Shown here: positions 82-46,234 of the stretch, in pieces
Layout of the letters: each line of letters begins with the position of its first letter
Numbering within the stretch: the first letter of the stretch is position 1
Notes under the pieces: model-generated
Database searches by the model: none
Told to the model about the DNA's origin: nothing
Seen by the model: the letters and a program-made list of their open reading frames with translations, nothing else
From: Gammaproteobacteria bacterium
GTDB lineage: Bacteria; Pseudomonadota; Gammaproteobacteria; Tenderiales; Tenderiaceae
Direction of reading: 5' to 3'
Length of the DNA stretch: 64,000 nt
Assembly (NCBI GenBank): GCA_021731365.1
Contig: JAKFXL010000011.1
Coordinates: forward strand, 1-64,000
Program-made: the position numbers and the translations under genes

Positions 82-359
82 TCCGTCACCCTCTTGAATG
101 GCACGTGTGGGCCAATATTGATCTCAAAGACATACAAATACCCAGGCACCTTCACTGGGGTGCGTAATACGGATGGCGAGGCTAGCCCCGCAACATCACG
201 CCAAAAACAGGGCATCCATTCTAACGCATTGCCGTGGCTCTGCCGCTGTCGAACAATCCGCGTGATAGGCGTGAGACGACAAGATAGATAATATTGCCGT
301 TGCATTTCACCATTCAGCGGCTAAGCTATGCCGTTATCCTTAGATGAGCTATCTGGACC

Positions 360-3300
360 GTGAAACACCTCAAAAACAGCGACATTCGCCACCACATCAG
401 CAAACAAAGCTACGCTCGTGGCAAGGCCTATTACGACGATCAGCGCGTCACCACACTCAATATCGACAATGAAACGGATGATCTGGTTGAGCTGAGCGCA
501 ACGGTGCGCGGCAGTGGCAACGCCCATTACCGGCAGCAGATCGAAATCAGCTGGGAGGCCGATGACGTCACCATCAATGGCGACTGTGACTGCCCGGTGG
601 GTTATAACTGCAAACATGTGGCGGCTGCGTGCTTGAAATATCTGGCGCAGTTTCACCTCTCAACGCCAAGCACCACAGCAAAAAATGAGAGCACCGCCTG
701 CCTCACCTGGCTCGATGAGTTCAGCGCACCAGCCGCCGCCGAGTCGCAGCAGAACAGCGCCGCCAAAGAGCAGCTCTTCTACATACTCAAACCAACGACG
801 CAGGCAGGCAGACTCCAGGTCACTTTTCATACAGCGCGGCTGTTAAAAAAGGGCGACCTGAGCAAACCACGCAGCACACATCTGCACAACATCAATGACA
901 GCTATCATCCAGCCCCCTATGTTCAACCGCTTGATCGGGAGATCGGCAAACTACTGCGCGCCAATAACGACAGCTGGCACGTTGTCTGGCTGCATGGTGA
1001 ACTCGGTTTTCTCGCCTTGATTAAAATGGTGCAGAGCGGCCGCTGCCACTGGCTCGATCTGGAGTCAGCCGCGCTGCACCCCGGCGAAGAGCGCGAGCTG
1101 GCATTGCAGTGGCAAGAAGATACCAAGGGTAACAACAGACTCAAGGTCGAGATCCTGCCCGAAGGTCAACTGCTGCTCACCACACCCGCACTCTATCTTT
1201 CAAACAAAACGAATAACATCGGCCCGGTGGTCAACGCCCCCTACTCCCAGGCCCAATTGGAGAAGCTGCTAAACGCCCCCGCAGTTCCGGCACAACTGGT
1301 CACCAAATTCAGCCAGAAGCTGGTGCGCAAGATTGCACCCACACTGCTGCCACCACCACAGCAGGTAGAGAGCGAAGAGATCAACGGCGAGCAGCCCATC
1401 CCCTGCCTGCAACTCTCGGCACGCGAACGTGAAGGTCATCTCTACCATCTCCTGCGCTTGCGCTACCGCTACGCCATGCACGAGATCATGGCCTCGCCGC
1501 AAGAGGCAACCGCGCTGCTTGAGATCAACAACAAGCTCATCCGCATCGAACGTGATATCGAAGCCGAAACTGCCGTCTTTGATGAGATCGAGGCGTTAGG
1601 CTTTGAACCACTGCTCGACCAGAACCAGCACGACATCATCTTTCTCAGCATGAACAACGCCAGCCCGGTGGAGGGTGTGGTGCGCTGGCACCACTTTCTT
1701 ACCGAGATAATCCCGACACTCCAGCAACGCGGCTGGCAGGTGGCATTCGACAGTAGCTTTCAGATGCATTTCCATCATGCCCAGCACTGGCAGGCCGAGA
1801 TTGAAGAGGATGGCAACGACTGGTTTGGGCTACGCTTTGATGTTGAGGTAGAAGGCCAGCCCATCGCACTGCTGCCACTGGTGGCACAGGCGCTGGAACA
1901 CTACCCGCCGAACCAGCTGCCCGACACCCTCACCCTCCACCTGGGCGGCGCACAATATCTCAACGTCGCCCGTGAACAGATCGAACCGATCATCACCACG
2001 CTCTATGAACTCTATGATCGCGACACCCTGCAAGCCGACGGTTCGCTGCGGCTGTCGCGTTACGATGCGGCACGCCTGACCGAACTGGAACAAACCACCG
2101 ACCTGCAATGGCGCGGCGGCGCAGCACTGCGCAAACTCGGGCAACAGCTCAAAGAATTTGCCGGCATCAAAAAGGTCGCACCGCCCACCGGACTAAACGC
2201 CACCCTGCGCCACTATCAGCAACAGGGACTCAACTGGCTACAGTTCCTGCGTGAATATGGTTTTGGCGCCATCCTCGCCGACGACATGGGGCTAGGCAAA
2301 ACGGTACAGACACTTGCCCATCTACTGTTAGAAAAAGAGCAAGGCCGCATTACCAAACCAGTGCTGATCATCGCCCCCACCAGCCTGATGAGCAACTGGC
2401 ACCGCGAAGCGCAACAGTTTGCACCGGCACTCACGGTGCTAGTGTTGCAAGGACCAGAGCGCCATCAACTTTTCGATCAGATCACCAGTCACGACATCGT
2501 ACTAAGTACCTACCCGCTACTGCCACGCGATGAAGAGCAACTGCTGGCCCACCACTACCACGCCCTGATTCTCGACGAGGCGCAGGTGATCAAAAACCCC
2601 AAGGCCAAGGCATCGCAGATCGTGCGCTTGATCAGGGCCGATCAACGCCTCTGCCTCACCGGCACACCGATGGAGAACCACCTGGGTGAACTCTGGGCGC
2701 TGTTCGATTTTCTGATGCCCGGTTTTCTCGGTGATGCCAAACAGTTCAACACCCTCTTCCGCGTCCCGATCGAAAATCATGGCGATGGCGAACGCCGCCA
2801 GCGACTGGTACAACGCATCGCCCCCTTCATGCTGCGCCGTACCAAAGATGAAGTAGTCAAAGAGCTGCCGGCAAAGACCGAGATCATCCGCAGCGTCACC
2901 CTCGGTAAAAAACAGGCCGCACTCTACGAAAGCATCCGCCTCTCCATGGAAGACAAGGTACGCCACGCCATCGCCAGCAAAGGGCTGGCGCGCAGCCACA
3001 TCACCATCCTCGATGCGTTATTGAAACTACGCCAGGCCTGTTGTGATCCACGCCTGCTACCACTGGCGCAAGCACAAAAGGTTAACGAATCGGCCAAGCT
3101 CGAACTGCTGATGCAAATGGTGCCAGAGATGGTCGAAGAGGGACGCCGCATCCTGCTCTTCTCCCAGTTCACAAAAATGCTCGGCCTGATCGAAAGTGAA
3201 CTCAGCAAACACAACATCCCCTACACCAAACTCACCGGCCAGACCCGCAACCGCGATGAAGCAATCGAACGTTTCAAGAGCGGCGAAGTGCAAGTCTTTC

Positions 3301-3631: not shown

Positions 3632-3760
3632 TATTACAAATTACAAACGACTGGCCATAAGCGGACATTCGAGTTTAATGTAGCCTGGATGGAACGAAGT
3701 GGAATCCGGGAATAGTGAGAACCCCGGATTGCGCTATCGCTGCATCTAGGCTGCTCGCTA
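3632..3760. repeat. Left copy of direct repeat flanking the AAA/HNH island
   Basis: The segment holds TTACAAATTACAAACGA, then AGTTTAATGTAGCCTGGATG, GAACGAAGTGGAATCCGGG and a complementary CCCCGGATT, so it can form a hairpin. The same order of blocks appears at 6726-6860 with many substitutions. The two copies lie in the same orientation on either side of the HNH/ATPase gene pair. The GTAGCCTGGAT-type palindrome resembles dispersed REP-like repeats of proteobacteria. Confidence 0.6.
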
Positions 3761-3765
3761 TAATT

Positions 3766-4626
3766 TCATGTTTCCAAAAAACCACCATCGCAAAACCAAT
3801 CGCTTTCTATGGCAGCCCTATACATAGCGGCTGTCCACGAGTTTTTATGCTCGACCTCAATGCTATAAAGTTCTTCGTGTAAATGTGCACGGACAGCGCT
3901 CACTCCACCTTTTTGATGCAGCATCTCTAGACGGGCACGAATCTCCGAAAGTCGGCTGCCAGCATTTGAGGTGAACAACACTGGAAGGTTGAGTTTCTTC
4001 AAATGCGCCGCCACTCGTGCCTTCGCTGATGGCATCCAATGGTCGGGCGGCGAGGAAAAATAACGGAATCCGGCTGGGATATCAGGCACCACTTCGGCTG
4101 CGAGCCATGCCTCATTGTCCATGTCATCAAAATAGGGATGGAGAAGCTGACCTCCCTCTGTCGTAGGGTAGTATTCGGATTTTTCCCCTTGGCACCAGTT
4201 GCAGGCCGGAACCAGATTGTTGGGCGTCACGGAATAGACCGGAAAATGAGTCTTAGGCAGGTAGTGATCAAGCGTGTTTACCGTCCCAATGCCACACAGC
4301 GGGCATCGGCCATGCAGAGGCGCCGACATGATTCGGTCGTAAGTGGGGCGTCCCTTCGACGACTTGGGCACCATCCGGAGCGTATAAATCTTCACCATTT
4401 CGCCACATGAAACGGCTCCTACATGATTGTGAGGTTGCTTTCGGTAGAGCTGCATGCCTGCTGCCTTGGCATCGTAATCAGCAGCCTCAGTTTCCACATC
4501 CGGTCGGATGGCCCGTAACTGTGCTCGCAGATCAGGTTTCTTCACCATGGAAACACAGGTCTCGAAGACATCGCCGGCGGCGAATACCTGCGCATTTTCA
4601 TCTGTTGGTGGTGGCAGATATCTCAT
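3766..4626 (-). CDS. HNH endonuclease, PtuB-like partner of the AAA ATPase
   Basis: A 286-residue protein with a zinc-type HNH nuclease core. CPLCG at 108-112 and CNWC at 142-145 form the likely structural zinc site. LDHYLPK at 119-125 gives the metal-activating His, and PNNLVP supplies the conserved Asn. It begins 9 bases after the end of the upstream ATPase gene on the same strand, so the two are probably cotranscribed and made together. An ATPase gene followed by an HNH gene is the architecture of Septu (PtuA-PtuB) anti-phage systems. That role is inferred from order and motifs; a stand-alone HNH protein of other function remains possible. Confidence 0.75.
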   Translation of the reverse strand: MRYLPPPTDENAQVFAAGDVFETCVSMVKKPDLRAQLRAIRPDVETEAADYDAKAAGMQLYRKQPHNHVGAVSCGEMVKIYTLRMVPKSSKGRPTYDRIMSAPLHGRCPLCGIGTVNTLDHYLPKTHFPVYSVTPNNLVPACNWCQGEKSEYYPTTEGGQLLHPYFDDMDNEAWLAAEVVPDIPAGFRYFSSPPDHWMPSAKARVAAHLKKLNLPVLFTSNAGSRLSEIRARLEMLHQKGGVSAVRAHLHEELYSIEVEHKNSWTAAMYRAAIESDWFCDGGFLET

Positions 4627-4635
4627 TAACTGTGA

Positions 4636-6222
4636 TTACTCCTCATCGTATAGAAACATGCCCCTCAGGACAGCCCTACCCTCAGCACCAAGCTTACCAT
4701 CCAGTTGATCAAGCGCATCCTCGTAACTGGCAAATTTCTGCCTCAAATCACCCAGAATATGGTGGTAACCTGATTGTGAGAGTTCCAATTTAAACACTTC
4801 CCGACTCAGGATGCCCACGCTCTCGGCAAATGTTTCAATGGTAGGTCGTTCCGCCTTTGAGGCGGTCAGGGTACGATCGAGTATCCATACGCAAGACATC
4901 GGAACCTCCTGAAGAATCACGGGTGAATGGGTCGCCACAATCGCGACTCCATTACGTTTCACCATCAACTCGGATATTGCGCGCGTCATTGCCGATAACA
5001 GTGGAGGATGAAGGTGGGCCTCTGGCTCATCGATCAGAGCGAGCGTTCTTTCTTCAACCTTTTCAACGAGCCGAGTTAGCGTAAGGAGGACAATCTTATG
5101 TCCCGAACTTAGAGCCTTGAAGGTTTTCAAGACTACTTCTTGTTCTTTCTTCTTGGAAAGGTCCACCTCGATCATCGTGGTCAATTGGGCCGCTCTGAAC
5201 ACCGGGTCAGACTGAAGGGTAGTAATCACATTTACCCATCTCCTTCGTCGTGTTCCAATGCGACACTCCTTCAAACTGTCCACGAACTCGCTAGCGAGCA
5301 TGTTAGGGGACTTAGGTTTGATTGACGCCGTTGGTGATCCACTGGTCCAACCGCGTAACCCAATGTAAGAAAACCCAAGGGAATCAGGCCCTGGATTACG
5401 GTCAGGCAGCAGATCTTCTTCATCAAAAGCGCTAAACGAAACCGCAACCACGTTGGCAAAAGTCCCACTATGTCTTCCAAGTTCATTTAATTCGAACTTG
5501 CCAGACTGCTTCGCAGAGGCATCCTTAGCGACCAGCGCCTTCGTCATCAAGGAAAGTAATCGCGTCTTCCCGACCCCATTCCGGCCAATGAGAACATGGA
5601 CATTTGTTGGAATCGGAGACTCAGGGTCAACACTGAAAACCAACGTGAAGGGCGGCGCACCATCACCCAGACGTTTTGGAGGAGAATAAGCGAAATCATA
5701 ACGTGTCACGCGCGCATCGCCATGCGCCATCCGGCGGAATTGTCCGTCGACTGTGCTCCGGGTTACGGAACGTAGCAACGACTCCCCCATTACATCTTCA
5801 CCACTTGCCCATTCCCAGCGCTCCTTGTCCCAGGCCACGTCACGCAGGCAAGTAAGAACCTGTTCGCGGACTGTGTCACCAAGGGCACCAAGGTTTGCGT
5901 AGTACTCCTCGTCTTGCCCGACCGAAAAAAACTCATCGTCCAATTGCCCGAAGGTGGATGGAACGTTCGGCTTGCGATGACCGGGGGGAAGCTCTGCGGA
6001 CCCTCCATGGGGCTTTAACCCGCGCTGCCCAATCTTTAAATGACCAATGCTGTGCTGTTCTCCGTCTTGGTCAACTACCGTTAGGTAAAATTGGGTGCGG
6101 TATTTCCCCCAATCGTCCCAATAGTCGATGTTCAGATATGCTGACCATCCGTTGGCATTAGATGGAACACTGGTGTTTGGGTCAATGATGTGGAATAGAA
6201 TGGGTTGAGGCTTATCTATCAT
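4636..6222 (-). CDS. AAA (SMC/ABC-like) ATPase, PtuA-like
   Basis: A 528-residue ATPase from the ATG at 6222. The frame is open to 6372, but the extra 50 codons read through a REP palindrome (VRLRYANRTYR is encoded by the repeat), so I reject the upstream start. No clear Shine-Dalgarno is seen at either ATG. Walker A GRNGVGKT lies at 213-220; Walker B IDEPEAHLHP, followed by the ATHSP switch, lies around 395-435, as in RecF/OLD-like AAA ATPases. The first 200 residues are an unassigned, probably beta-rich domain. In PtuA-type proteins the ATPase controls the HNH nuclease encoded next, which fits the downstream gene. Function as phage defence is inferred. Confidence 0.75.
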   Translation of the reverse strand: MIDKPQPILFHIIDPNTSVPSNANGWSAYLNIDYWDDWGKYRTQFYLTVVDQDGEQHSIGHLKIGQRGLKPHGGSAELPPGHRKPNVPSTFGQLDDEFFSVGQDEEYYANLGALGDTVREQVLTCLRDVAWDKERWEWASGEDVMGESLLRSVTRSTVDGQFRRMAHGDARVTRYDFAYSPPKRLGDGAPPFTLVFSVDPESPIPTNVHVLIGRNGVGKTRLLSLMTKALVAKDASAKQSGKFELNELGRHSGTFANVVAVSFSAFDEEDLLPDRNPGPDSLGFSYIGLRGWTSGSPTASIKPKSPNMLASEFVDSLKECRIGTRRRRWVNVITTLQSDPVFRAAQLTTMIEVDLSKKKEQEVVLKTFKALSSGHKIVLLTLTRLVEKVEERTLALIDEPEAHLHPPLLSAMTRAISELMVKRNGVAIVATHSPVILQEVPMSCVWILDRTLTASKAERPTIETFAESVGILSREVFKLELSQSGYHHILGDLRQKFASYEDALDQLDGKLGAEGRAVLRGMFLYDEE

Positions 6223-6264
6223 AATTATTACACTGATTCGAGAGTCATAGAATATGCTGAGCCT

Positions 6265-6433
6265 GTAGGTCCGATTAGCGTAGCGTAATCGGACGTATGT
6301 AAAACATGGCTGTTCCCACCTTTTACCGTTACGTAAAACTGGGCTACCCATTAAATTGGAGTGATTGTCCATGGCTGACTATTTAAGGAGATGGTTGGCA
6401 TGCGTCCGATTACGCTACGCTAATCGGACCTAC
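6265..6433. mobile_element. REP-bounded remnant of a RAYT transposase gene
   Basis: Inverted GTAG-type REP palindromes form the ends: GTAGGTCCGATTAGCG at 6265 and its reverse complement ending in CCTAC at 6433. Between them, one plus-strand frame reads FYRYVKLGYPLNW, a stop, then GDGWHASDYATLIGPTS. This matches the C-terminal tail of RAYT (REP-associated tyrosine transposase) proteins and aligns with the two longer copies at 44065 and 45986. The catalytic core is absent. The element sits just upstream of the ATPase start and may shape its promoter region. Confidence 0.7.
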
Positions 6434-6725
6434 GAGCTTCAAAATCCCCTTGATCAATTGTTCACCCTGCCCTTGCTGTTAATGCCACAGGATGAGCTGA
6501 GGTACAAGGCGCATCGTTCGTGCAACACAACTGATGCGCCTCCTACGTCGGCACATCCTATCTCACTACACCGTTGATATTTACTACACGTTGGATTTGA
6601 TTCTGACTGGATTGGTTTTTGATGTTCATGACATGCCCCCATGTATGTGGCTCACTATGACTAGTTGCGGTGTGGTGGTCAACATCAAAAAGGGGATGGA
6701 TAGTAAAAAATATTACTGAATATTT
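6434..6725. other. Intergenic stretch with no convincing gene
   Basis: About 290 bases between the REP element and the right-hand flanking repeat. The only open frames are short, without ribosome sites and without recognisable composition. I see no RNA gene or clear terminator. Confidence 0.5.
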
Positions 6726-6860
6726 GTTACAGATCACAAACGATCTGAGTCAGTCAGGATTTAACCTCCGCGTTTAATATAGCCTGGATGGTACGAAGTA
6801 AAATCCGGGTTAGGGGTAATGCTTCCCCGGATCTCGTTTCACGCCATCCAAACTACACGC
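6726..6860. repeat. Right copy of direct repeat flanking the AAA/HNH island
   Basis: GTTACAGATCACAAACGA, then GTTTAATATAGCCTGGATG, GTACGAAGTAAAATCCGGG and CCCCGGAT follow in the same order and orientation as at 3632-3760. The copies differ at many positions and in spacer length, so they are old. They bracket the nuclease/ATPase pair. Confidence 0.6.
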
Positions 6861-6885: not shown

Positions 6886-7293
6886 CTAAAGGGTGCAAAC
6901 CCCATCCAGAAAACTTTCCATATCGTAATTAAATGGCAGCCCCGGCAACTTGCCGAACAGCCTGATCTCGACGTTTAGTACGGCCTCAACATCGGCAGGT
7001 AACTGGGTTGGGAATTCAATCAGCTGCCAGGTGTTACTGGCGATTTCGTGGAAGACGGGATTGTTGTTATCTCTCTGCAACAGATGCACCACGCTGCCAT
7101 CGGTTTTTCTCACCTTGATCAGGGGCTGCACATAAAGTCCTACGGCTTCGCTCAAAAAACGCAGGCTTACGCCCTGCATGTTTTGCCATTCGGGCCGGTT
7201 TTGCAGATCGGGGGGGAGATAACTGATACGCCAGAAATCGGTCTGATACAAATCGGGGTTAATAGGGATGTCTCGGGAGTAGATTGTATACAC
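6886..7293 (-). CDS. Hypothetical protein, probably an N-terminally truncated fragment
   Basis: A 135-residue frame with balanced, protein-like composition (for example PDLYQTDFWRISYLPPDL) and no motif I recognise. Its only usual start is a GTG at 7293. The frame stays open upstream for eleven more codons without ATG, GTG or TTG, and no well-spaced Shine-Dalgarno is present, so the true N-terminus may be missing. Its 5' end meets the broken 5' end of the MazF-like frame on the other strand, which suggests a recombination junction near 7285-7325. Function unknown; the text reads more like the tail of a larger exported protein than a complete small one. Confidence 0.45.
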   Translation of the reverse strand: MYTIYSRDIPINPDLYQTDFWRISYLPPDLQNRPEWQNMQGVSLRFLSEAVGLYVQPLIKVRKTDGSVVHLLQRDNNNPVFHEIASNTWQLIEFPTQLPADVEAVLNVEIRLFGKLPGLPFNYDMESFLDGVCTL

Positions 7294-7577
7294 CTCTGAA
7301 CCGCGAAAATCGCCCAGCGGTGGTGATCAGCTCAGCGGCCTACAATAACGAACGGCCCGACATCATCATCATGGCCGTGACCTCTCAGATCAAAACCACT
7401 CCAATCATCGGCGAGGTGATGATTCAACACTGGCAGGCTGCTGGCTTGCCCAAGCCATCCGTCATCAAACCGGTGATGACAACCATTGAGAAACTGTTAA
7501 TCCTTCAGACCATTGGACGGCTAAGTGATGAAGATCTACAAGGGTTAAAAGAGAGTTTGACGGAGATTTTAGGGTGA
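7284..7577 (+). pseudogene. MazF/PemK-family toxin, N-terminally truncated
   Basis: The frame encodes the body of a type II toxin endoribonuclease of the MazF/PemK family. NRPAVVISSAAYNNERPD aligns with the RPAVV strand carrying the catalytic Arg, IIIMAVTSQ with the strand carrying the catalytic Thr, and IQHWQAAGLPKPSVIKP with the usual C-terminal half. The first beta strand (the GDIxxVxFP block, about 20 residues) is missing. Upstream the frame hits a stop at 7263 with no ATG, GTG or better start than a TTG at 7284. No antitoxin gene is adjacent. I regard it as a decayed toxin; translation from TTG would give a protein lacking part of the fold. Confidence 0.65.
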
Positions 7578-9296: not shown

Positions 9297-10619
9297 TTAA
9301 TCATCAACAGCTGCCTCCTCCAGCAGCGCCACGATGTCGGCAAAGCTGGGGCGCTGTTCTACCACCGTATCCAGGCAGCGCTGTTGCAGGTGGCTGAGCT
9401 GCTGGATGGAGGTGGGATAATAGGCCCGGTCATCCCGATCCAGCCGCGCCAACAGCTCTTCCAGCAGACAGCCAAACGCCCGGACCTCCAGCCGCTCCAG
9501 CGCCGCTGAACAGGTCTCCAGACCGACCATACTCTTATATATAGTGGCTGCGCCAAAATCCCCCAGCAGGATATCAGTAGCCTGATTGAGCAGGATGTTA
9601 TGGCCATACAGGTCGCCGTGCATGATGCCGCGCCCGTGCAGATGGCTGGCCACTGCGGCAATACTGCGGGTGATGTTGAGCAGTGCGACGAGGCTGAAGG
9701 TTGCCTCTGCTGCATAGGTATCACGGGTACAACTCTCCAGACTGGGTGGGGCCGCCAGATTTTTAAATGCCTGATCCAGCAGCGCTAGCAGCAACCCGCA
9801 CTTCTGTTCCGGATGGCCTACCAGCTTACCCAGCAGTGTCACCAGATGGGTATGTTGCCCGGCGGCCAGGGCTGCTGCCATCTCATGCTCGGGCAGACCG
9901 TCGCTGGTGATGCTGCCTTTGAACAGTTTAACCGCCACATCACTGCTACCGTTCCAGCGCGCCTGGCTGATCACCCCCGATGCCCCCTGCCCCAGCGGCT
10001 GACCCAGTTGCAATGTTTGCCAGTGGACCTCGGGTAGATCTGACGTGGTTTCAGGGTGCTGGCTACAGGGGTTACCAGCAAACGCCAACCAGGCCAGTTT
10101 GGGCAGTTTAACCAGCCACGCGGGCAGGGTGACCAGCCGGTTGGCAGAGATCCGCAGCAGTTCGATGTTGACGCAGTGTGCCATCTCATCGGGCAGTGCT
10201 GTCAGCTGGTTGCCCGCCAACATCACTTTTTGCAAATGGTGGTGGTTGCCAATTGAACGGGGCAGCGCTTCGAGCCGGTTATCGGTCAGAATCAGCCAGC
10301 GAATCCTGGCGGGCAGCGCGCCCTCAGGCAGCTCAGCAATCTGGTTGGCCTTAAAACCCACCATGCTCAACTCCGGGCATTGTGCGAGCACGGTGGGAAA
10401 ACGGTGGAAGTGGTTGTTGGATAGAAACAGAATCCGCAGCTTTTTAAGCTGTGCAAAATTGTCTGGCAGCTCGCTTAAACAGTTGTCCGACAGGTCGAGA
10501 TACTCCAGCGTCTCCGCCAACGCCAACAGCTGTTGTGGAAACACGGTTAACCCTTCGGCAATGTTTACCCGCTGTGCGCCCGCCAGTCGACCGGCCTGAA
10601 GATCTGCAAGAGTCTGTAT
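9297..10619 (-). CDS. Leucine-rich repeat protein with serine/threonine kinase domain
   Basis: The N-terminal half is a run of leucine-rich repeats (LEYLDLSDNCLSELP, LRILFLSNN, IRWLILTDNRLEALP and so on). The C-terminal half is a protein kinase: LGQGASG glycine loop, VAVKLF lysine, HGDLYGHN catalytic loop and GDFGAA metal site, so catalysis looks possible. The first ATG/GTG/TTG in frame is a GTG at 10544. The frame continues upstream as QTLADLQAGRLAGAQRVNIA, which matches the expected start of this LRR-kinase family, back to an ATA at 10619 placed 9 bases after AAAGG. I give the longer form; the annotated start may be a non-standard ATA or a mutated ATG. It stands alone; its target is unknown. 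Confidence 0.75.
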   Translation of the reverse strand: MQTLADLQAGRLAGAQRVNIAEGLTVFPQQLLALAETLEYLDLSDNCLSELPDNFAQLKKLRILFLSNNHFHRFPTVLAQCPELSMVGFKANQIAELPEGALPARIRWLILTDNRLEALPRSIGNHHHLQKVMLAGNQLTALPDEMAHCVNIELLRISANRLVTLPAWLVKLPKLAWLAFAGNPCSQHPETTSDLPEVHWQTLQLGQPLGQGASGVISQARWNGSSDVAVKLFKGSITSDGLPEHEMAAALAAGQHTHLVTLLGKLVGHPEQKCGLLLALLDQAFKNLAAPPSLESCTRDTYAAEATFSLVALLNITRSIAAVASHLHGRGIMHGDLYGHNILLNQATDILLGDFGAATIYKSMVGLETCSAALERLEVRAFGCLLEELLARLDRDDRAYYPTSIQQLSHLQQRCLDTVVEQRPSFADIVALLEEAAVDD

Positions 10620-43721: not shown

Positions 43722-43772
43722 GTAGGTCCGATTAGCCCGTAGGTCCGATTACGCTGCGCTAATCGGACCTAC
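43722..43772. repeat. GTAG-type REP palindrome
   Basis: GTAGGTCCGATTA at 43739 and its reverse complement TAATCGGACCTAC at 43760 flank CGCTGCGC. A partial extra copy GTAGGTCCGATTAGCCC starts at 43722. The REP matches the ends of the RAYT remnants at 6265, 44065 and 45986. Confidence 0.8.
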
Positions 43773-43776
43773 GAGC

Positions 43777-44088
43777 TACTATTGGTGGCCAGCCTTAGGT
43801 GAGAAAATAGTACCTGTTCATTATGGTGTTTCGAAAAGGCATATTGAGTATTCGTCGTGGTATGACGAAAGCGGTGATTTTCAGGAAGCGGGAGATTATG
43901 ATAAACCTTACAAAGTAATAAAGGCTCCTGAGTTTGGCCCAGAGTTGAGTATTGAATCTGACTTCTATTTTCACTCAAGAGAAGAGTTTACCCCTGAAAA
44001 TGAGCGAAAATCAGTGCCGGCCTGTATAACTTGGCAAGATACACTAGAACAGTGGTGGGAGCCCGTAGGTCCGATTAGCGCAGCGTAA
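43777..44088 (+). pseudogene. Gene fragment between REP elements
   Basis: An open frame without start codon, entering from the REP at 43772 and running as YYWWPALGEKIVPVHYG and then SKRHIEYSSWYDESG, to TWQDTLEQWWEP, where the next REP at 44065 begins and soon gives a stop at 44086. The stretch is clearly protein-like in codon use and composition. It looks like the internal or C-terminal part of a gene cut on both sides by REP insertion or recombination. Family not recognised. Confidence 0.5.
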
Positions 44089-44312
44089 TCGGACGCATGT
44101 GAAATGGCTATCACCTGATTAAAAAACGGAAAACGGAAAATGCGTAACTATTGTCAGGCCTTTATTCTCGGTGGCGCATGTTCAGGATTGGCTCTATTCC
44201 ACCATTACGTCAAACTGGGGATTTGCTCTCTGAATTGGCGTGGTGATCCCAGGGTGAGCCTTGAGGGTGGCGATTGTCATGCGTCCGATTACGCTGCGCT
44301 AATCGGACCTAC
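44065..44312. mobile_element. Internally deleted RAYT transposase element, copy 1
   Basis: 248 bases bounded by inverted GTAG-REP palindromes (GTAGGTCCGATTAGCG at 44065, reverse complement ending CCTAC at 44312). Inside, ATG at 44140 opens a 60-codon frame: MRNYCQAFILGG matches the start of RAYT transposases, and HHYVKLGI, SLNWRGDPRVSLEGGD matches their C-terminal tail. The HUH motif and catalytic Tyr between them are gone. The copy at 45986 has the same deletion, so it spread as a unit. Confidence 0.75.
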
Positions 44313-44492
44313 GAGCTGTTGATCACCGACTCTGTCTGTCTGCCATGCCTGTCAGCACTATTGGCATTAATATACGGACGCCTGAATAACAATTTCATTT
44401 CACATCAATCAATTACGATGGCATCATGGGCGTCAGTATATTAAATAACGTCCGGGCGCTGGTGCCCGTCTATTACCTGTTAGGGGCCGTAT
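44313..44492. other. Region before the membrane cassette gene
   Basis: About 180 bases. CTGTTAGGGG at 44478 resembles an attC right core but lacks a convincing left partner. CGGGCGCTGGTGCCCG can form a small hairpin. No gene seen. Confidence 0.3.
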
Positions 44493-44912
44493 ATGACAAT
44501 GACCAGCTATGAAATCGCAGATTACGCATTTAAGAGCGACTCCGTTCTTTCCGATGACAATGAGAAACTCATCGGCTACCTATGGGGGCTACAAAATCAC
44601 ACCAATACGTCCCCCGGTACAGAACAAAGAGACGTCATTCGCGGCATCACGATCAATCACATTCTGTTACAGCGGCATATTGACCGCCTCGATAAACAAA
44701 ACACAAAAACCCAGCGGTTAGTCATCGCTCTCACAGTAGCAGCTCTATTAAGCGGAATACCGCAAATATGGCTTGCGTACAGGGCGGACAGAAGAGCTGA
44801 GACAGAACAAAAAACCATTGCAATCCAACAGCCAGCGCCAGCCCCACAATCGGTAGCCCCATCCCCGGCGTTACCCCCGTCTTCCGATCAACCCAAGAAG
44901 AAAACCCCTTGA
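44493..44912 (+). CDS. Single-pass membrane protein, cassette gene
   Basis: A 139-residue protein. Residues 1-70 are polar and helical. One transmembrane segment (RLVIALTVAALLSGIPQIWLAY) lies near 76-97, followed by a Pro- and Ala-rich tail (QPAPAPQSVAPSPALPPSS). No signal peptide or known domain. An attC site begins 12 bases after the stop, so it is a gene cassette. A role is unknown; small membrane proteins with polar N-termini occur as effectors in defence and toxin systems, but nothing here proves that. Confidence 0.65.
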   Translation: MTMTSYEIADYAFKSDSVLSDDNEKLIGYLWGLQNHTNTSPGTEQRDVIRGITINHILLQRHIDRLDKQNTKTQRLVIALTVAALLSGIPQIWLAYRADRRAETEQKTIAIQQPAPAPQSVAPSPALPPSSDQPKKKTP

Positions 44913-44923
44913 ACTTAACCGCA

Positions 44924-45012
44924 GCCCCTAACCCTGCATTCGAGCTGACGCGTCTGACGCCGCTATTCTTCTCTGGCTTTTTCATGCACACGGCTCAATT
45001 TGAACGTTGGGC
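44924..45012 (+). other. Integron attC site
   Basis: Left core CCCTAAC at 44926 and right core GTTGGGC at 45006. CATTCGAGCTGACG on the left pairs imperfectly with CGGCTCAATTTGAACG on the right, the usual attC arm with an unpaired base. It ends the upstream membrane cassette; the FRG gene begins 19 bases further. Confidence 0.7.
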
Positions 45013-45030
45013 TTCGCAAGGAACCATCTC

Positions 45031-45879
45031 GTGCCATTAAAAAAGTTAAATATTAGGGGATGCAAAGCAACTACGACACCTGATGGTCAAGTGATTTTCA
45101 AGGTGCGTGATACACATACTCTAATTCAAGCGGCAGGATATTTAAAACATGTAAGAGGAAGTAAAAACTCTGAGTTAGTGTGCTTTCGTGGTGAGTCAAA
45201 GTTGTATCCAACACTTCCTCCCACGGCGTTTCGTGGTATCTCCTCACATAGCGCTGTTTCAAGCGCGATTAACCGGATCAACAAAGCAATAATTCAGTTC
45301 GAGAGGCCGCTAAAGTCTACGGGTGTATATGCCCACGAAGCGCTGCTGCAGCATTACGGCCTCAAAACTACATGGGTGGATTTGGTTGATAATATATGGG
45401 TCGCTCTTTGGTTTGCCTGCCATAATGCTCTATCCGTCGGCCCGGCCGGTGAGCATCTGCACTTTGAACGCCGCGTTCCACGTACTGAACCAACTGGAAA
45501 AGCGTATGTGCTGTTAGTTGCTGTGGATGCCGTGGCACCAGACAATGCATGTCCTGGTTTTTACGCCGGGACAAATACAGAGTTAATAGACCTCCGTATA
45601 GCGGCGCCCTCAGTGTTTGTGCGTCCTCATGCACAGCACGGTCTTCTCATGAGAAAGAAAGGAAATACAGTTCAACGCCCCACGGATTACAGTAGCCAGA
45701 TCAGAGGCATCCTAGAGATAGAGCTCGCCGATGCATTAGAGTGGCTAGGAAACAGTAGCGCGCTAAGCGTGCACAGTCTTTTTCCGCCCCCAACTTATGA
45801 CAATGGCTATAGAAATTTACTATCCGTTGAATTCAAAGGGGCAAAAAATGTCGGATGTGTGTCGCATATCGGAGCATAG
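45031..45879 (+). CDS. FRG-domain protein, cassette gene
   Basis: A 282-residue protein with an FRG domain: LVCFRGESKLYPTLPPTAF near 55-75, and ALLQHYGLKTTWVDLVDNIWVALWFAC near 110-135, where His, Thr and Asp positions match the family. FRG domains occur in proteins of phage or plasmid-linked and probably toxic function; biochemical activity is not established. GTG at 45031 is preferred because AAGGA lies 8 bases upstream; the frame also opens at a TTG within the attC core. The gene follows an attC directly. It stops just before a partial REP. Confidence 0.75.
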   Translation: MPLKKLNIRGCKATTTPDGQVIFKVRDTHTLIQAAGYLKHVRGSKNSELVCFRGESKLYPTLPPTAFRGISSHSAVSSAINRINKAIIQFERPLKSTGVYAHEALLQHYGLKTTWVDLVDNIWVALWFACHNALSVGPAGEHLHFERRVPRTEPTGKAYVLLVAVDAVAPDNACPGFYAGTNTELIDLRIAAPSVFVRPHAQHGLLMRKKGNTVQRPTDYSSQIRGILEIELADALEWLGNSSALSVHSLFPPPTYDNGYRNLLSVEFKGAKNVGCVSHIGA

Positions 45880-45882
45880 CCC

Positions 45883-45985
45883 GTAGGTCCGTATATGGCC
45901 CCCTCTCGATTTGCAAACAAATTGGTGTAAAGGGATAAGGAAAATTGCATCCGTATATTCGGCTTATTGTCGAGAAGGTAGGCCC
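45883..45985. repeat. Partial REP and decayed sequence
   Basis: GTAGGTCCG at 45883 begins a REP but breaks off into unrelated sequence (TATATGGCC). The next 90 bases up to the RAYT element hold nothing recognisable. Confidence 0.45.
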
Positions 45986-46234
45986 GTAGGTCCGATTAGC
46001 ACGGCGTAATCGGACGCATGTGAAATGGCCACCACCTGATTAAAGAAATGGCAAACAGAACATGCGTAACTATTGCCGGGCCTTTATTTTCGGTGGCGCA
46101 TGTTCGGGATTGGCTCTACTCCACCATTACGTCAAGCTGGGCATTTACTCTCTGAATTGGCGTGGTGATCCCAGGGTGAGTCTTGAGGGTGGTGATTGTC
46201 ATGCGTCCGATTGCGCTGCGCTATTCGGACCTAC
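45986..46234. mobile_element. Internally deleted RAYT transposase element, copy 2
   Basis: 249 bases bounded by GTAGGTCCGATTAGC at 45986 and its imperfect reverse complement ending CCTAC at 46234. The frame from 46062 reads MRNYCRAFIFGG, then LLHHYVKLGIYSLNWRGDPR and VSLEGGDCHASD, joining the N- and C-terminal ends of a RAYT transposase with the same junction as copy 1. The two copies differ by only a few substitutions. The right end is fused to an IS30 remnant. Confidence 0.75.

Follow-up and report, generated by a model that had tools for sequence, protein, structure and literature searches.

The locus considered here raises two questions: whether an ATPase gene and an HNH nuclease gene, lying between two direct repeats, represent a Septu-type anti-phage system, a variant of such a system or something else, and whether the repeats mark a mobile cassette that brought the pair to its present site. 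Throughout, the window refers to the whole stretch of 64,000 nucleotides that was analysed. On the minus strand of the window, the ATPase gene is followed by the HNH nuclease gene with 9 bases (4627-4635) between them in the ORF list, confirming the PtuA-PtuB order, with the ATPase upstream of the HNH gene, that had been proposed in the first-pass annotation. The mechanically called ORFs span 4636-6372(-) for the ATPase and 3766-4626(-) for the HNH protein. The true start of the ATPase is most likely the ATG at 6222, since the close homologs in L017 and L019 share its length of 528 aa and begin at the equivalent position, the PADLOC PDC-M01A model begins at ORF residue 60, DNA similarity to L017 stops at 6214, and the 50 extra upstream codons traverse a palindrome (6260-6307) that recurs elsewhere. 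The features of the locus and of the two proteins are compiled in Table 1.

Table 1. Features of the gene pair, of its protein products and of the surrounding repeats; positions refer to the window unless given as residues (res.) of the ATPase.
Feature	Position	Strand	Remarks
Left direct repeat	3634-3710	+	TTACAAATTACAAACGA block (3634-3650) and first hairpin half
Dispersed hairpin element, copy 1	3679-3760	.	fold z -5.6
PDC-M01B / Ea31-type HNH nuclease	3766-4626	-	286 aa; PADLOC, invariant residues, AF2, PDB fold search
PDC-M01A / Ea59-type ABC-OLD ATPase	4636-6222	-	528 aa; PADLOC, alignments, AF2, PDB fold search
5' extension of mechanical ATPase ORF	6223-6372	-	probably non-coding; overlaps palindrome repeat
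Another dispersed palindrome, GTCCGATTA(N)8TAATCGGAC, in two inverted copies	6260-6438	.	upstream of ATPase
Right direct repeat	6727-6809	+	TTACAGATCACAAACGA block (6727-6743) and first hairpin half
Hairpin element, copy 2	6778-6857	.	degenerate; fold z -3.2
N-terminal family-specific domain of ATPase	res. 1 to about 190		conserved, folded
ATPase Walker A	res. 213-220		GRNGVGKT; alignments
ATPase signature	res. 371-375		LSSGH; alignments
ATPase Walker B/D-loop			LALIDEPEAHLHPP; DEPEAHLHPP motif; alignments
ATPase H-loop	res. 430-441		ATHSPVILQEVP; alignments

The ATPase matched the PADLOC model PDC-M01A (PDLC04235) at 6e-186 and 617 bits, over model positions 3-504 of 510, and the PADLOC PtuA1 model PDLC00282 at 2e-168, while the HNH protein matched PDC-M01B (PDLC04264) at 8e-97 over model positions 9-279 of 282. 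Searches against Pfam returned AAA_21/AAA_15 as the sole matches in the ATPase, gave no match at E<=1 for its N-terminal domain and gave nothing significant for the HNH protein. In an unbiased PDB fold search with the AF2 model of the ATPase (pLDDT 86), retron I-A and Septu PtuA were found first; the TM-scores to PtuA were low (0.3-0.4), probably in part as a result of the domain arrangement, and profile-profile alignment with hhalign linked the ATPase to Septu PtuA at E 2e-20 in the C-terminal lobe only. The same search with the AF2 model of the HNH protein (pLDDT 97) found PtuB of retron Ec78 first (E 4e-4), and hhalign linked this protein to Septu PtuB at E 5e-9 (96%). The zinc cysteines of the HNH protein (C108, C111, C142 and C145) and the H121 and N137 residues of its HNH motif are all invariant in 46 sequences, and its C-terminus is formed by long helices. 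The H-to-N spacing of 16 is the same as in EcB88 PtuB (H75 and N91; PMC13096335). The earlier description of the pair as Septu-like is thus supported by the PtuA1 model, by both profile-profile alignments and by the first PDB matches.

Based on these profile matches, the pair is a member of the PADLOC candidate PDC-M01 and a relative of Septu PtuAB. PDC-M01 has been described as an unpublished candidate, and its calls have been noted to overlap with Septu calls (PMC11811056). It therefore has to be asked whether the pair could simply be a canonical, if divergent, Septu type I PtuA-PtuB, which we consider rather unlikely. The PtuA1 set of PADLOC includes PDLC00282, itself a model of the PDC-M01 family, and the best structural matches are PtuA and PtuB; however, the ATPase carries an additional N-terminal domain of ~190 residues, PADLOC also keeps the pair as a separate candidate, and neither TIGR02646 nor HNH_I-A recognises the HNH protein. 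In a single-sequence HMM test this protein had no NCBIfam match and therefore none to the PtuB type TIGR02646, and a purpose-built PtuB HMM missed it as well. The retron HNH_I-A model PDLC02924 also missed it and, in the same genome, matched only contig C28. A second ATPase-HNH pair is encoded on that contig (L016:89-2802) and, unlike the window pair, it does match PtuA and PtuB models (PDLC00293 at 3e-207 and PDLC00343 at 1e-103, respectively); this genome therefore has two distinct PtuAB-like systems.

The position of the Walker A motif separates the two groups further. It starts at residue 213 in the window ATPase and at a median of 204 in 58 viral relatives, in contrast to residues 29-56 for most ATPases encoded directly beside TIGR02646 genes, the NCBIfam family through which the comparison PtuA-PtuB pairs were gathered; one of these had the motif at residue 89, in an ORF that is open at its 5' end. 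The first-pass suggestion of a variant subtype with about 200 unexplained N-terminal residues consequently holds with respect to Septu type I, but PADLOC already lists this variant as PDC-M01, the N-terminus is covered by PDLC04235, and ~50 of the residues in question are probably not coding. Because the pair shows the PtuA/PtuB fold and profile matches, yet is missed by TIGR02646 and HNH_I-A, this PDC-M01 member is best described as belonging to a sister group of Septu and not to Septu type I.

The closest named genes are ea59 and ea31 of phage lambda, which are members of the PDC-M01 family. Ea59 has 38% identity over 98% of the ATPase, Ea31 has 30% identity over most of the HNH protein, and on PDC-M01A Ea59 outscores the window ATPase (667 vs 617 bits). 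The two lambda genes (L052:2220-4684) adjoin each other in the same order as the window pair, and both are non-essential in lambda (PMC10695390). No paper linking Ea59 to Septu or to antiphage defence was found in the searched literature, and papers outside it may exist; likewise, the searched literature contained no experiments on PDC-M01 members and no defence role for lambda ea59-ea31.

Several observations bear on how the pair came to be in this genome. A Sideroxydans MAG shares 79% DNA identity with the window, limited to the gene pair, no close homolog of the pair was found in 10 genomes of the same family, and GC content dips to about 0.50, vs 0.57, over about 3.5-7.5 kb. These three findings argue that the pair was acquired. 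Comparison of the window pair with L017 gave a dN/dS of about 0.09-0.11 (dN 0.09-0.12, dS 1.1), and the pair is under purifying selection. It can therefore be regarded as an acquired, maintained accessory module. No tRNA gene that could have served as an insertion site was found near the pair, and scanning the locus for promoters and terminators yielded nothing beyond chance expectation. Elsewhere in the window, an ORF at 7284-7577 has a PemK/MazF-like toxin match (PF02452, 3.5e-13), with a 135-aa ORF of a family not recognised beside it on the opposite strand, and an ORF at 9297-10544 has a leucine-rich-repeat-like N-terminus and weak matches to the kinase-type defence models mad6, PD-T4-6 and MkoA.

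Taken together, the reading we favour, with a probability of roughly 0.8, is that the two genes were acquired horizontally and form an anti-phage system of the PDC-M01 (Ea59-Ea31) family, which is a sister group of Septu PtuAB; in this system an ATPase would gate an HNH nuclease. The analysis itself establishes both genes with their motifs, their obligatory pairing, purifying selection, the homology to PtuA and PtuB, and the location of relatives in defence islands and prophages, whereas we infer that the pair acts against phages and forms a complex, and likewise its trigger and substrate. The OLD-type ABC ATPase would dimerise or oligomerise and hold the HNH subunit, and phage infection would be sensed by the family-specific N-terminal domain or through a change in ATP state. 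Once released, the HNH nuclease would cut nucleic acid, which could be host tRNA or phage or nicked DNA, and this cleavage would keep the phage from multiplying, with the cell itself probably sacrificed. In the Septu system EcB88 PtuAB, defence has been shown to need both ATPase and HNH residues (PMC13096335). Some PtuABs deplete tRNA-Tyr and others do not, and even closely related PtuABs differ in their target (PMC11555353); by analogy, the substrate of the window pair may differ from those of known PtuABs.

The genomic surroundings of the relatives provide additional information on function. Among relatives on viral contigs, counted at 100 bits or more, the HNH gene lies directly 3' of the ATPase gene in all 62 with room downstream, with a gap of -50 to +12. 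Plasmids of Pseudomonadota, Actinomycetota and Bacillota also carry relatives, and several relatives are located in defence islands. Defence neighbours of the relatives include CBASS genes (L019), an Eco57I-type methylase (L017) and, on a plasmid, an MvaI restriction-modification (RM) system (L061). The E. coli version adjoins icd in the record examined, and close copies are present in 90 of 5426 complete E. coli genomes. In Roseinatronobacter (L057:5995-9702), an IS3-family transposase lies between the ATPase and HNH genes, and Walker A was not found in that ATPase. A crude integrase motif search beside the viral relatives gave 1 hit in 65, with a motif too crude to inform.

With so many relatives on viral contigs and plasmids, and with lambda carrying the pair in its dispensable b region next to attP, where it is non-essential (PMC10695390), the genes could alternatively form a module for competition between phages or plasmids or for DNA processing (superinfection exclusion, recombination or stabilisation), and not a bacterial defence system. 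This explanation appears improbable, as it has to be set against the chromosomal relatives in defence islands and the plasmid relative adjoining an RM system, and superinfection exclusion is itself a form of defence.

Separate from the function of the pair is the possibility that it was moved as part of a mobile cassette whose ends are the two direct repeats. The earlier observation of direct repeats on both sides proved real: the blocks (3665-3710 vs 6764-6809) are 85% identical over 46 nt, and a gapped alignment that includes the 17-mers TTACAAATTACAAACGA/TTACAGATCACAAACGA reaches about 93 nt in the same orientation. The repeat flanks upstream of the hairpin match by themselves at p about 2e-4, and the repeat therefore exceeds chance. 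In addition, the 17-mer (TTACARATYACAAACGA block) is unique to the two flanking sites, with one other place at 2 mismatches, equal to the reversed control. Since this 17-mer is unique to them and their flanks are alike beyond chance, the two repeat copies have more in common than the hairpin. The hairpin half, however, is not specific to the locus, as the hairpin part of ~82 bp is interspersed in the genome, where other contigs carry about ten further copies. Thus, while the shared orientation, the unique block and a GC dip over the same region would fit a cassette, the repeat core is a dispersed hairpin, the copies are only about 75-85% alike, no integrase, transposase or other recombinase lies between them, and homology to L017 is confined to the genes and does not extend to the repeats. 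In the same-family genomes, SNF2 and DEAD-box orthologs are present, the gene order around the locus is not conserved, and no empty site was found. The proposal of a mobile cassette is therefore unproven, and we regard it as doubtful at best. A second family of dispersed palindromes, GTCCGATTA(N)8TAATCGGAC, is clustered in the window (6260-6438 and 43743-46230) and on contigs C10, C43 and C76, and an imperfect inverted repeat with 43-nt arms (6480-6568) lies upstream of the ATPase, in a stretch that contains no genes.

Finally, a retron type I-A effector pair with its reverse transcriptase (RT) and ncRNA lost or distant was rejected as extremely improbable, since, although the top fold matches include PtuA and PtuB of retron I-A, no RT was seen among the genes identified near the pair, annotation shows none next to nine plasmid relatives or in lambda, and the retron HNH_I-A model misses the window HNH.

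Returning to the anti-phage system of the PDC-M01 family, the window pair itself adds one copy to a candidate that had already been catalogued. A useful side result is the connection with lambda, by which dispensable genes from the b region of the best-studied phage belong to this family, and experiments in laboratory E. coli and in lambda can therefore test the family directly. We would give about even odds to the broader proposal that PDC-M01 forms a branch of its own within PtuAB immunity, extended at the N-terminus, in which the extra domain would act as phage sensor, with lambda ea59-ea31 as a prophage-borne member that would protect lysogens against competing phages.

Compared with known systems, the window ATPase shares the DEPExHLHP Walker B and a common C-terminal lobe with the OLD and PARIS AriA ATPases, but it has no Toprim match and the nuclease is encoded separately, as an HNH protein. 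Both window proteins have their best structural matches in the PtuAB effectors of retrons I-A (Ec78/Eco7 and Ec83), although no reverse transcriptase was found near the window pair. Septu type I PtuA-PtuB has the same arrangement of an ABC/OLD ATPase followed by an HNH protein and the same fold by PDB search; by contrast, PtuA lacks the ~190-residue N-terminal domain of the window ATPase, and the window HNH is longer than PtuB and is unmatched by PtuB sequence models. Lambda ea59-ea31 differs in its setting, adjoining attP in the b region of a phage, whereas the window pair occupies a bacterial chromosome locus with no recognised phage genes adjoining. For PDC-M01 itself no difference was found, and both window proteins match its models across their whole length, with the gene order unchanged.
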